DNA from: Marinimicrobium hydrolyticum
GTDB taxonomy: Bacteria > Pseudomonadota > Gammaproteobacteria > Pseudomonadales > Cellvibrionaceae
Reading direction: 5' to 3'
NCBI RefSeq assembly: GCF_030848505.1
Contig: NZ_JAVDDU010000009.1
Location: 1-64,000, forward strand
Length of the DNA stretch: 64,000 bases
A program made the translations under genes and the position numbers. The notes beneath the pieces are model-generated. The model was given only the letters and a program-made list of their open reading frames with translations. It was not told the DNA's origin and ran no database searches. Positions 39,018-55,067 of this stretch are shown piece by piece (positions within the stretch are counted from its first letter, which is position 1; each line of letters opens with the position of its first letter).

Positions 39018-39123
39018 AATGAAACTCAAGTAGACTGAAGCGGATGGAAAGAAGCGGCCCATTATACCCGCTACCCAAGGCGATAAAAGTCCGTTCGTTT
39101 TCGGGCCATAACCGCTACACTTA

Positions 39124-39195
39124 TACTACTGAACAATCGGAAACTGATACCACTGAATAATCGGGAACTGATACCACTGAACGATCAGGAAAGGA
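39124..39195. repeat. Three tandem copies of an approx. 24-bp unit
   Basis: Units start at 39124, 39148 and 39172, built on TACCACTGAAYAATCGGRAA with CTGA at the end. Units 1 and 2 are 24 bp with about three differences. Unit 3 is complete for 18 bases and then runs into the left arm of the palindromic element at 39188. The copies are direct and contiguous, without spacers, so this is not a CRISPR array. Confidence 0.75.
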
Positions 39196-39290
39196 TCCCC
39201 TGCGTTTTGAGACCCTCGGAGGCAGGAAGCCGACGCGGAGCGTACAAGGAGGTATTTAAAGCGTGTCTCAAACCGCAGGGTATCCTTTCC
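39188..39290. repeat. Palindromic three-way-junction element, copy 1
   Basis: A 26-base left arm (39188-39213) and right arm (39265-39290) are complementary at 24 of 26 positions. The 51-base centre (39214-39264) is about 81 percent identical to the centre of the copy at 49535-49632. It holds two small hairpins, one around TCGG...CCGA and one around TAC AAGGAG GTA. The arms of the two copies are different sequences apart from TTTG and GAC near the junction. No coding frame. It lies in the gap between the esterase promoter and ppnN. Confidence 0.8.
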
Positions 39291-39330
39291 TTTCGCACCG
39301 ACAAGTATAAACGTGAAAGGTCCATGATTT

Positions 39331-48571: not shown

Positions 48572-49315
48572 TTATTCCATTTGCGCCAGAACGTCGTCGG
48601 GAATGTCGCCATTGGTGTAGACGTTTTGCACGTCGTCCAGGTCTTCCAGCATGTCCACCAGAGCGAGCAGTTTCTCGGCGCCTTCTTTATCCACTTCGAT
48701 GGTGGTGGAAGGCAGCATGACGATGCCACTGTTGGTGGGTTCAAAGCCGGCTTCGATGAGCGCTTCTTTGACGGCGAAGTAGTCTTCAAACTGGGTCATG
48801 ACGTCTTTGGTGCCGTCGCTGTTGGTGACCACGTCTTCGGCGCCCGCTTCCAGGGCGGCTTCCATCAGGGCGTCTTCGCTCACCTCGGCGTCGTACGTCA
48901 GTTGGCCGGTGCGAGTGAACAGGTAGGCGACGGAGCCGTCGGTGCCGAGGTTGCCACCGCGCTTGCTGAAGGCGTGGCGCACTTCGGCAACAGTGCGGTT
49001 TTTGTTGTCGGTCATGCACTCGACGAGTACGGCGATGCCGTTGGCGCCGTAACCTTCGTAGGTGACTTCTTCGTAACTATCACCTTCGGCATTGCCGGCG
49101 CCACGAGCGACGGCTTTGTCGATGGTGTCTTTTTTCATGTTGACGCCCAGGGCTTTGTCGATGGCAGCTCTGAGGCGGGGGTTGTCTTCGGGGTAAGGAC
49201 CGCCTTTGGCGGCGACGGTCAGCTCGCGGATAATTTTGGTGAAGACTTTACCGCGCTTGGCGTCTTGTGCGGCTTTGCGGTGTTTGATGTTTGCCCATTT
49301 GCTGTGGCCAGCCAT
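48572..49315 (-). CDS. yebC: YebC/PmpR family translation/transcription factor
   Basis: 247 aa from the ATG at 49315 (GGAG seven bases upstream). The start [20 protein letters not shown] is the family hallmark, and [20 protein letters not shown] is also conserved. YebC-type proteins bind DNA as regulators in some bacteria; recent work links the family to relief of ribosome stalling at proline runs. Lies between aspS and ruvC as in pseudomonads. Confidence 0.95.
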
Positions 49316-49666
49316 GAGGTTTCTCCAGTTACTGTCGTTATGTCTGGTAGTTCCGGTAAAGCGGTGGTTTCGGCGCCGGTCCGCTTTGGGTGGGACCGAA
49401 TCGAGGAGTCCCGCCGGCGACGGTCTTGGAAGGCCAAATCCCAAATCGGGCCTACCTTTCGAGCAAAACCGCGAACAGCGCTTCAGTTACATCAAGTCTC
49501 GGAGCTCATAGGCTGCCGTATAGCACCGAGCCGTGCGGGCGGCCCCCTTTGCGGGACCGTCGGAGGCAGGGATGCCGACGCCGAGCTTGCAAGGATGCAT
49601 TCACAGCGTGTCCCGCAAAGGGGGCCGCCCGCTCGGCGCCCACAATTAAACCCCGAAACTTGAGTA
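49316..49666. other. 351-bp gap between aspS and yebC
   Basis: Holds the yebC leader (GGAG at about 49323-49326) and, near the aspS end, the second copy of the palindromic element (49535-49632). A plus-strand frame runs through it but is only an extension of the antisense of yebC. No other feature seen. Confidence 0.5.
49535..49632. repeat. Palindromic three-way-junction element, copy 2
   Basis: Left arm 49535-49557 and right arm 49610-49632 are perfectly complementary over 23 bases (G+C-rich, with a CCCCC TTT block), and four more pairs form outside a single mismatch. The 52-base centre (49558-49609) has the inner stem CGTCGG/CCGACG around a loop AGGCAGGGATG, and TGCA-AGGA-TGCA as a second hairpin. 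It matches the centre of the copy at 39188-39290 at 42 of 52 aligned positions. It lies just past the aspS stop, so it may also act at the 3' end of that transcript. Confidence 0.85.
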
Positions 49667-51451
49667 TTACGATTCGCTAGCGGGCTTTTCCTTTTTACGC
49701 AGACGAATATTCAACTCTTTCAATTGCTGCTCATCCACGCCACCCGGCGCGTCGGTCATAACACAAGCCGCGCTCTGGGTTTTCGGGAACGCAATCACGT
49801 CGCGGATTGAGCTGGCGCCGACCATAAGCATAATCAGGCGATCGAGGCCGAAGGCCAAGCCGCCGTGGGGCGGTGCGCCGTATTTGAGGGCGTCCAGCAG
49901 GAAGCCGAATTTTTCCCGCTGCTCGTCTTCCTCAATACCCAACACGCGGAATACCGCTTGTTGCATAGCCTGGTTGTGGATACGGATGGAACCGCCGCCC
50001 AATTCGGTGCCGTTGAGCACCATGTCGTAGGCGCGGGACAGAGCCTGCCCGGGGTCGGCTTCCAGTTCTTCCACGGTGCAAGAAGGCGCGGTGAATGGGT
50101 GGTGCAGGGAATTCCACTCGCCGTCGGAATCCTCTTCGAACATGGGGAAGTCCACGACCCAGAGGGGTGCCCACTCTTGGGTGTACAGGTCCAGGTCCGC
50201 GCCCAGTTTGCAGCGCAGGGCGCCCAGGGCTTCGGTGACGACTTTGGCTTTGTCGGCGCCGAAGAAGATCAGGTCGCCGTTTTCCGCTTGCAGGCGTTCC
50301 AGCAAGGCGGCGCGTACGTCGTTGGGCAGGAATTTCACGATGGGCGATTGCAGCCCCTCTTCCAAGTCGGACTTGTCGTTGACCTTGATGTAAGCCAGAC
50401 CCTTGGCGCCGTAGATGCCGACGAATTTGGTGTAGTCGTCGATCTGCTTGCGAGTCAGCTTGTCGTTGCCGCCGGGCACTTTCAGTGCGGTGACGCGGCC
50501 TTTGGGGTCTTTAGCGGGGCCGGAGAAGACTTTGAAGTCCACTTCGGTCATCAGGTCTTTGACGTCCACCAGGGTCAGGGGAATGCGCAGGTCAGGCTTG
50601 TCGGAGCCGTACTGGGCAATGGCGTCGGCGTAGGTCATGCGCGGGAATTCACCCAGGTTGACGTCCTTCGCTTGTTTGAACACTTGGCGAATCATGTCTT
50701 CGGTCACGCCCATGATCTGTTCCTCGCTCATAAACGAGGCTTCGATGTCGATCTGGGTAAACTCGGGCTGACGATCCGCACGCAAATCTTCGTCACGGAA
50801 GCATTTGGCGATTTGATAATAGCGATCAAAGCCAGACACCATCAGCAACTGTTTGAACAGCTGGGGCGACTGGGGCAAGGCGAAGAATTTGTTCTCGTGG
50901 GTACGTGAGGGCACCAGGTAGTCCCGTGCACCCTCTGGAGTAGCGCGGGTCAAAATGGGGGTTTCAATATCCAGGAAGCCCTGACCATCCAAATAGTTGC
51001 GCACGGCGCTGGTCACTTTGGAGCGAAAACGCAGGCCGGCTTGCATGTCGTGGCGGCGCAGGTCCAGATAGCGGTACTTCAGACGCACGTCTTCGCCCAC
51101 GGAGGCGTGAGAATCCAGGGGGAAGGGGGTGGTTTCCGCTTCGTTGAGGATCAGCAGCGCGGTGCCGTAGACTTCCACTTCACCGGTGGCCATATTGGGG
51201 TTAACGGTGGCGGCATCCCGAGCCCGCACCTTGCCGGTGACTTGCAGCACGTATTCGCCCCGCACCCGATCGGCCAGATGAAAGTGATCGCCCGCATCCG
51301 GGTCAAATACCACCTGAACAATGCCCTCGCGATCGCGCAGGTCGATGAAAATCACACCGCCGTGGTCACGGCGACGGTCAACCCAGCCGCAAAGAGTTAC
51401 TTCCTGATCAATGTGCTCGGCTCTCAGCGTGCCGCAATAGTCACTGCGCAT
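49667..51451 (-). CDS. aspS: Aspartate-tRNA ligase
   Basis: 594 aa class II synthetase of the bacterial type. N-terminal OB-fold anticodon-binding domain (about 1-110, [20 protein letters not shown]), catalytic core with motif 2 [19 protein letters not shown] and motif 3 [15 protein letters not shown], and the bacterial GAD insertion (about 290-420). Whether it is discriminating or also charges tRNA-Asn depends on gatCAB elsewhere. Confidence 0.97.
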
Positions 51452-54862: not shown

Positions 54863-55019
54863 AATCGGTTCAAACCAAAGCGAAATTAGCACAACAGCCG
54901 CTGTCACCTGTGCTACTCGCCGCACAGAAATACATTCTCGTGGCCGGAATCGACGGCTCCGCATGGCAATCATAGACAAAGCACCCTCCCTGACGCAATT
55001 TTAGGCTATACAATCCAAA

Positions 55020-55033
55020 TGTAACCGGTTACA
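55020..55033. promoter_or_regulatory. Perfect palindromic operator, LacI-family-like
   Basis: TGTAACCGGTTACA is a perfect 14-base palindrome with a central CG, the form of LacI/GalR-family operators. It lies 34 bases before the start codon of the solute-binding protein gene, within the expected promoter zone, so repression is likely. No LacI-type regulator gene is in the window. Confidence 0.6.
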
Positions 55034-55067
55034 GTTTGCGTGTAATAATAACAACAGGTGGCTACAA

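Follow-up and report, generated by a model that had tools for sequence, protein, structure and literature searches.

The window examined here is a 64,000-nt stretch of DNA in which a long palindrome lies directly behind the 3' end of aspS, and its place raises the question of whether it serves the transcript that it adjoins or belongs to something larger. The initial annotation described it as the second copy of a palindromic element with a very stable stem, built from perfect 23-bp arms and four further pairs beyond one mismatch. A repeat search located this hairpin at 49530–49637, with two 28-nt arms paired at 27 of 28 positions and 52 nt between them; 23 perfect pairs are followed by one T.T mismatch and then by 4 further pairs. 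RNA folding of this segment alone gave −82 kcal/mol with a z-score of −6.3, a stability equaled by none of 200 shuffles, and folding as DNA gave a z-score of −7.2, so that both the place and the stability of the stem were borne out. The aspS gene on the minus strand ends at 49667, 29 nt off the element, and yebC starts at 49315. The features of the window are as follows.

49530–49637, plus strand (the strand with the GGA loops): whole element, an outer stem and two hairpins in a three-way junction (repeat search, fold, covariance model)
49530–49557, plus strand: left arm of the outer stem (repeat search)
49610–49637, plus strand: right arm of the outer stem (repeat search)
49558–49583, plus strand: hairpin 1 (SL1), loop AGGGAT at 49568–49573 (alignment fold; GGA in 130/131 copies)
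49585–49607, plus strand: hairpin 2 (SL2), loop AAGGAT at 49591–49596, bulge TTCAC at 49600–49604
49585–49587/49605–49607 and 49588–49590/49597–49599, plus strand: SL2 helices P3a and P3b, respectively (RNAalifold, copy comparison)
49492–49506, plus strand: left outer inverted repeat of the sub-family of this copy, 12/15 positions matching by eye
49649–49663, plus strand: right outer inverted repeat, ending next to the aspS stop codon (by eye)
49372–49452, minus strand: probable remnant of the sense member of an ancestral inverted pair (local alignment against relatives)
39185–39294, plus strand: second window copy (HMM and covariance searches)
49667–51451, minus strand: aspS (ORF; Pfam tRNA-synt_2, GAD, OB)
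48572–49315, minus strand: yebC (ORF; TACO1/YebC)

A full-sensitivity search of the window returned only these two copies, besides opposite-strand shadows and one weak match at chance level. Behind a minus-strand gene and 36 nt ahead of a plus-strand one, the copy at 39185–39294 is in a promoter region, as had been noted from the sequence. Three 24-nt head-to-tail repeats at 39119–39190 reach its left arm, and short tandem repeats also adjoin copies at two other loci (L023 and L106). The frame GTVGGRDADAELARMHS is open within a 364-aa ORF antisense to yebC; short "proteins" predicted on copies of the element would be artefacts. Elsewhere in the window, a short overlapping palindrome around TGTAACCGGTTACA (55009–55044) precedes a plus-strand gene and is perhaps an operator.

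Both copies belong to a large dispersed family. In the same genome, blastn found 38 places, 44 core matches came from an HMM run on the first stretches, and a covariance model listed 125 matches among the best 150 of 1223 candidates, from which at least 118 copies were kept after the removal of five opposite-strand shadows and two partial matches. Searching 495 kb (86 stretches, about one eighth of the genome) at higher sensitivity yielded 146 matches and, with 15 dropped as shadows or overlaps, 131 copies; the stretches were picked around earlier matches, and 118 and 131 are lower bounds rather than a census. According to a crude, unpublished codon-score ORF caller made for this analysis, 116 of the 118 copies overlap no gene, and the gaps that hold them are co-directional (72), convergent (30), divergent (15) or, for one copy at a contig end, undecided, in agreement with the earlier remark that the position of the element does not point to a single function. 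Among the co-directional gaps, 36 copies are sense and 36 antisense to their neighbors (17 and 15 for single copies). The 3'-end role that the initial annotation suggested fails in its simplest form: no terminator-like site was found at 49300–49700, and TTTT follows the stem, on either side, in just 1 of 131 copies, by which an intrinsic terminator is rejected.

The conserved architecture goes well beyond a plain stem. The element is an intergenic unit of about 110 nt, in which the long outer stem closes a three-way junction with two hairpins. RNAalifold on 33 copies recovered the outer stem, SL1 and SL2, with at least one compensated double change in 30 of 35 pairs. Across the 131 copies the outer arms average 27 positions when all mismatches are penalized equally, and both arms and stems vary between copies with compensating changes. 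In the genome of the window, GGA is present in loop 1 of 130/131 copies and in loop 2 of 129/131, and the two GGA are spaced by 22 or 23 nt in 121/131. Outside the arms, at least 98% of the 131 copies keep A.GGA in both loops, AG before P3a, and CGT with the following T on the 3' side of P3a. The 5-nt bulge of SL2 has the form TNNAC, with T..AC kept in at least 98% of the 131 copies, and usually reads UUUAC or UUCAC. P3a, a 3-pair helix below the bulge (G-C, then C-G or U-A, then C-G, U-A or G.A), is absent from the covariance model and pairs in 325/361 cells of the 131 copies, with a slid-pairing control that is not clean, since a shift of +2 still pairs in 282/360 cells because the invariant letters recur.

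Exactly two such hairpins occur in 111/131 copies and three or four in 14/131, some of the extra ones through insertions in SL1 or SL2. Four loci (L038, L039, L040 and L041) have a common SL2 insertion of about 50 nt, by which one more AGGGA hairpin is gained. Long SL1 stems of the type GCCTCAAAAG AGGGAC CTTTTGAGGC mark a sub-family (L117, L123, L124, L127, L130, L132 and L135–L140) that has its own flank, GGTAAGAATGCCTTAG...CTTACGAAG. From other taxa, 131 matches were reduced to 117 full-length copies by dropping fragments and overlaps, and GGA is found in loop 1 of 114/117. The search pattern already contains the second GGA and is matched by 85 of the 117; GGA is present in loop 2 of all 32 copies outside this pattern. 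The motif GGCAC occurs in 49/131 copies, and a sigma-54 promoter reading of it was dropped by eye, the second box being missing.

Could the element still act at mRNA 3' ends, as a stem blocking exonucleases or ending transcription both ways? The higher count in convergent than in divergent gaps (30 vs 15) speaks for it, as do six relatives without the element (G005, G036, G074, G033, G071 and G002), which by eye have an ordinary-looking terminator, a stem with a T-run, behind aspS. Such a role is nevertheless improbable, since the element has no T-run and a plain stem needs no two conserved loops, bulge and junction.

A G.U mismatch on one strand is an A.C mismatch on the other, and the arms can therefore indicate which strand must fold. 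Thirty-three copies had been retrieved on sequence similarity only, and their arms, paired with G.U and A.C penalized alike, hold 881 Watson-Crick pairs, 35 G.U and 8 A.C. The model by which the larger sets were found rewards G.U; with this bias, the arms of the 131 copies hold 3251 Watson-Crick pairs, 135 G.U and 12 A.C (86 copies have more G.U than A.C and 5 have more A.C than G.U), and the 117 copies from other taxa hold 169 G.U and 27 A.C. Other mismatches in the 131 copies are likewise uneven, with 103 G.A, A.G or G.G versus 9 C.T, T.C or C.C. The excess of G.U over A.C indicates that folding is maintained on the GGA-loop strand. Judged from these patterns, the working form is most likely a single strand with GGA loops, RNA being the most likely; the strand bias itself would fit RNA and single-stranded DNA alike.

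The SELEX consensus for CsrA is RUACARGGAUGU, which occurs exactly in 6/131 copies and nowhere else on either strand of the 495 kb. The element keeps A-N-GGA in the loops of two hairpins, at a spacing of about 23 nt, and such paired A-N-GGA loops characterize CsrA/RsmA-binding RNA. In one report (PMC4333381), paired GGA hairpins are given as a CsrA-binding motif, generally paired because CsrA is a homodimer, and CsrA binding of the TwoAYGGAY RNA was proposed from such hairpins. We give about even credence to the reading that the family is a REP-like dispersed repeat whose RNA would present two docking loops for CsrA/RsmA, with transcription and binding both predicted from sequence. In a transcript through a copy, the three-way junction would hold the two loops out to be bound by both faces of one CsrA/RsmA dimer, and the copies, acting as docking sites or decoys, would take up CsrA or else mark and stabilize transcript ends.

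The copies are frequently arranged in inverted pairs. Among 42 neighbor pairs within 600 bp, 38 are "-+", 2 "+-" and 2 "--", and 48 copies are single; the pairs at loci from other taxa are 20 "-+", 5 "+-", 4 "++" and 1 "--". By the "-+" geometry, RNA polymerase coming from either side transcribes the complement before the GGA form, which would make the unit independent of the orientation in which it is inserted. With one of the 38 pairs dropped from the comparison for a part that is empty in the alignment, mates were found to be alike in SL1 (0.34 vs 0.127, sd 0.045, in shuffled pairings, with 0/5000 as high) and not alike in their arms (3754/5000 shuffles as high for the left arm and 1858/5000 for the right). 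The spacers between mates often hold a smaller palindrome, ATTCCCGCGAAAGCGGGAAT (L092, L096, L101, L014 and L120), which by eye resembles a CGTC-tagged REP, a name taken from PMC3733652. When two relatives were compared, G064 had one whole pair that G080 lacks (365 bp vs 39 bp), with drifted flanks and no clean empty-site junction at this site; elsewhere in the same two genomes, cores are near-identical and arms differ yet still pair.

Arms that are near-perfect while differing between copies and between orthologues are what template switching during replication would produce, the palindromes being kept perfect by quasi-palindrome correction with no selection involved, and mates with a common SL1 would likewise be expected from conversion. 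This process is nevertheless highly improbable as the explanation, for it leaves unaccounted for both the 135 G.U against 12 A.C and the fixed GGA in both loops, together with the fixed bulge and junction letters.

The aspS-yebC gap of related genomes illustrates the history of one such pair. A "-+" pair is located in this gap in four of them (G020, G021, G064 and G080), and in G001, from the same genus, only the sense member is present. In G064 and G080 the sense member occupies the same place, with paired arm changes. In the window, the intact member is antisense to aspS and is accompanied by a decayed sense member at 49372–49452. This remnant is not detected by the covariance model; its local alignment score is 49 with the G080 member, versus at most 31 in 500 shuffles, 45 with that of G064 (best shuffle, 30) and 28 with that of G001 (one shuffle as good), and it is not distinct from shuffles against G020 and G021. 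The alignments suggest that the window copy is the antisense member left from an old pair, its sense mate having decayed. As the GGA-loop strand here is the plus strand, the aspS-yebC transcript holds the complement, and for this transcript the window copy is probably a relic. The initial annotation had set mobility against arms shared in orthologous gaps by descent. Descent was upheld at this locus, where the orthologous gaps hold a related pair, and the absence of mobility was not, the family being clearly dispersed; the pair kept in relatives and the decayed partner mean that no recent jump is needed here.

Dispersal on this scale brings in the main rival to the CsrA/RsmA reading, a purely DNA-based mobile element (REP- or MITE-like) whose single-stranded hairpins are recognized by a transposase or replication enzyme, the GGA loops being contacts for that enzyme and RNA having no role. 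It is a serious possibility, although on balance a doubtful one. Many copies are dispersed, sub-families have common flanks at unrelated genomic places, inverted dimers and the co-directional and convergent placement are as described for REP (PMC3733652), a whole pair differs between G064 and G080, orientation to genes is unbiased, and single-strand folding suits DNA as well. Against it stand the lack of a Y1 transposase (PF01797) in the genome of the window, the lack of an established target duplication, the fit of both loops to the CsrA/RsmA pattern A-N-GGA, and the pairs that stay in place at aspS-yebC in four genomes. The outer inverted repeats, a MITE criterion, were seen by eye in the sub-family of the window copy only, with no clean empty site.

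The element is widespread in Gammaproteobacteria. In the family of the host, model matches were obtained in 97/120 genomes and 27/32 genera (best 32 candidates per genome), and in the order, at E up to 1e-6, in 112/293 genomes and 54/119 genera (best 13 candidates per genome). Matches listed from a DNA pattern search include Microbulbifer, Cellvibrio, Marinobacter, Alcanivorax, Haliea, Shewanella, Stenotrophomonas and Xanthomonas, with at least 150 matches in X. hortorum and at least 98, among the best 150 candidates, in S. maltophilia D457. Phage and plasmid records gave no match to the 60-nt core. The element is present on two IMG/VR viral contigs (L314 and L315), one of which holds two copies about 2.3 kb from each other and oppositely oriented. 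Rfam searches returned only sub-gathering miRNA and isrG matches for 49300–49800 at E up to 1 and no match for 7 loci at gathering scores, and searches of an open-access literature collection listed no earlier description of the family.

The occurrence of CsrA itself bears on the docking-loop reading. The genome of the window has one csrA, and 110 of the 112 element-bearing genomes of the order have CsrA, the exceptions being G299, which is fragmentary, and G094. Among the CsrA-less genomes of the order, 2/16 carry the element (Fisher p 0.034, kinship ignored), and the link between CsrA and the element is weak. G094, assembled as one contig, has at least 32 element matches and gave no CsrA match, nor any better one on a second search, which counts against the CsrA reading, as does the antisense position of the intact window copy relative to aspS. 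G094 is also a natural case in which to see whether loops decay when CsrA is absent. The equal sense and antisense counts, which likewise speak against the CsrA reading, show no sign of copy-by-copy selection for the sense direction, and a cis role in sense mRNA was rejected for the lack of orientation bias to neighboring genes. A 3'-UTR RNA, RsmU, can sequester RsmA in Xanthomonas; after all four of its GGA were changed, RsmA binding and the overexpression effect remained, according to that report (PMC7694677), so that GGA alone need not decide binding.

A bolder version of the docking-loop reading takes the copies as genome-wide, self-dispersing CsrA/RsmA decoys whose spread is coupled to the global regulator. 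The mates of a pair have SL1 in common and could base-pair with each other, and their transcript could then alternate between two forms, an open one taking up CsrA and a closed one that does not. Whichever way a pair is transcribed, the UCC-loop hairpin would appear before the GGA-loop hairpin. We regard this version as rather unlikely.

Genomes with the element may carry a hidden network of candidate CsrA/RsmA docking sites. Should the copies prove to be transcribed and bound by CsrA/RsmA, a dispersed repeat overlooked by current annotation would help to set the load of this regulator in marine and plant-associated Gammaproteobacteria, and models built on two or three CsrB-like RNAs would be incomplete. 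As purely DNA elements, the copies would still form a large repeat family unlike REP, with a strand-specific structure and a fixed pair arrangement.

Among known systems, REP, BIME and REPIN sequences, which bear GTAG or CGTC tags, resemble the element in being numerous intergenic palindromes, mostly in inverted dimers and seldom in divergent gaps, with compensating stem changes. REP are described as mostly inverted dimers between co-directional and convergent genes, with transcription suggested, in PMC3733652. The element differs in its length of about 110 nt versus 20–40 nt for REP, in its 25-pair outer stem with a three-way junction, and in having no GTRG head as a rule (found within 24 nt on the 5' side in 34/131 copies versus an estimated 20 or so by chance). 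GTAG-REP are defined by a head motif and an associated Y1 transposase (PMC2817692); PF01797, the REP-associated Y1 transposase, is absent from the 99.8% complete genome of the window, and membership in the GTAG-REP/RAYT group was rejected on both features. The likeness to CsrB/RsmZ-type RNAs and TwoAYGGAY (RF01731) lies in the paired GGA-loop hairpins (PMC4333381); the element is not a single RNA gene, having more than 100 dispersed copies, and has no Rfam match. RsmU (sRX061) of Xanthomonas campestris is similar as a GGA-bearing RNA from an mRNA 3' end that binds RsmA (PMC7694677). The comEA locus, read in X. hortorum rather than X. campestris, has no element directly behind comEA, the nearest match lying about 1.2 kb away, and gives no support to RsmU as a family member. 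The element thus behaves like REP in the genome, yet it is neither a REP in the strict sense nor a known CsrA RNA.
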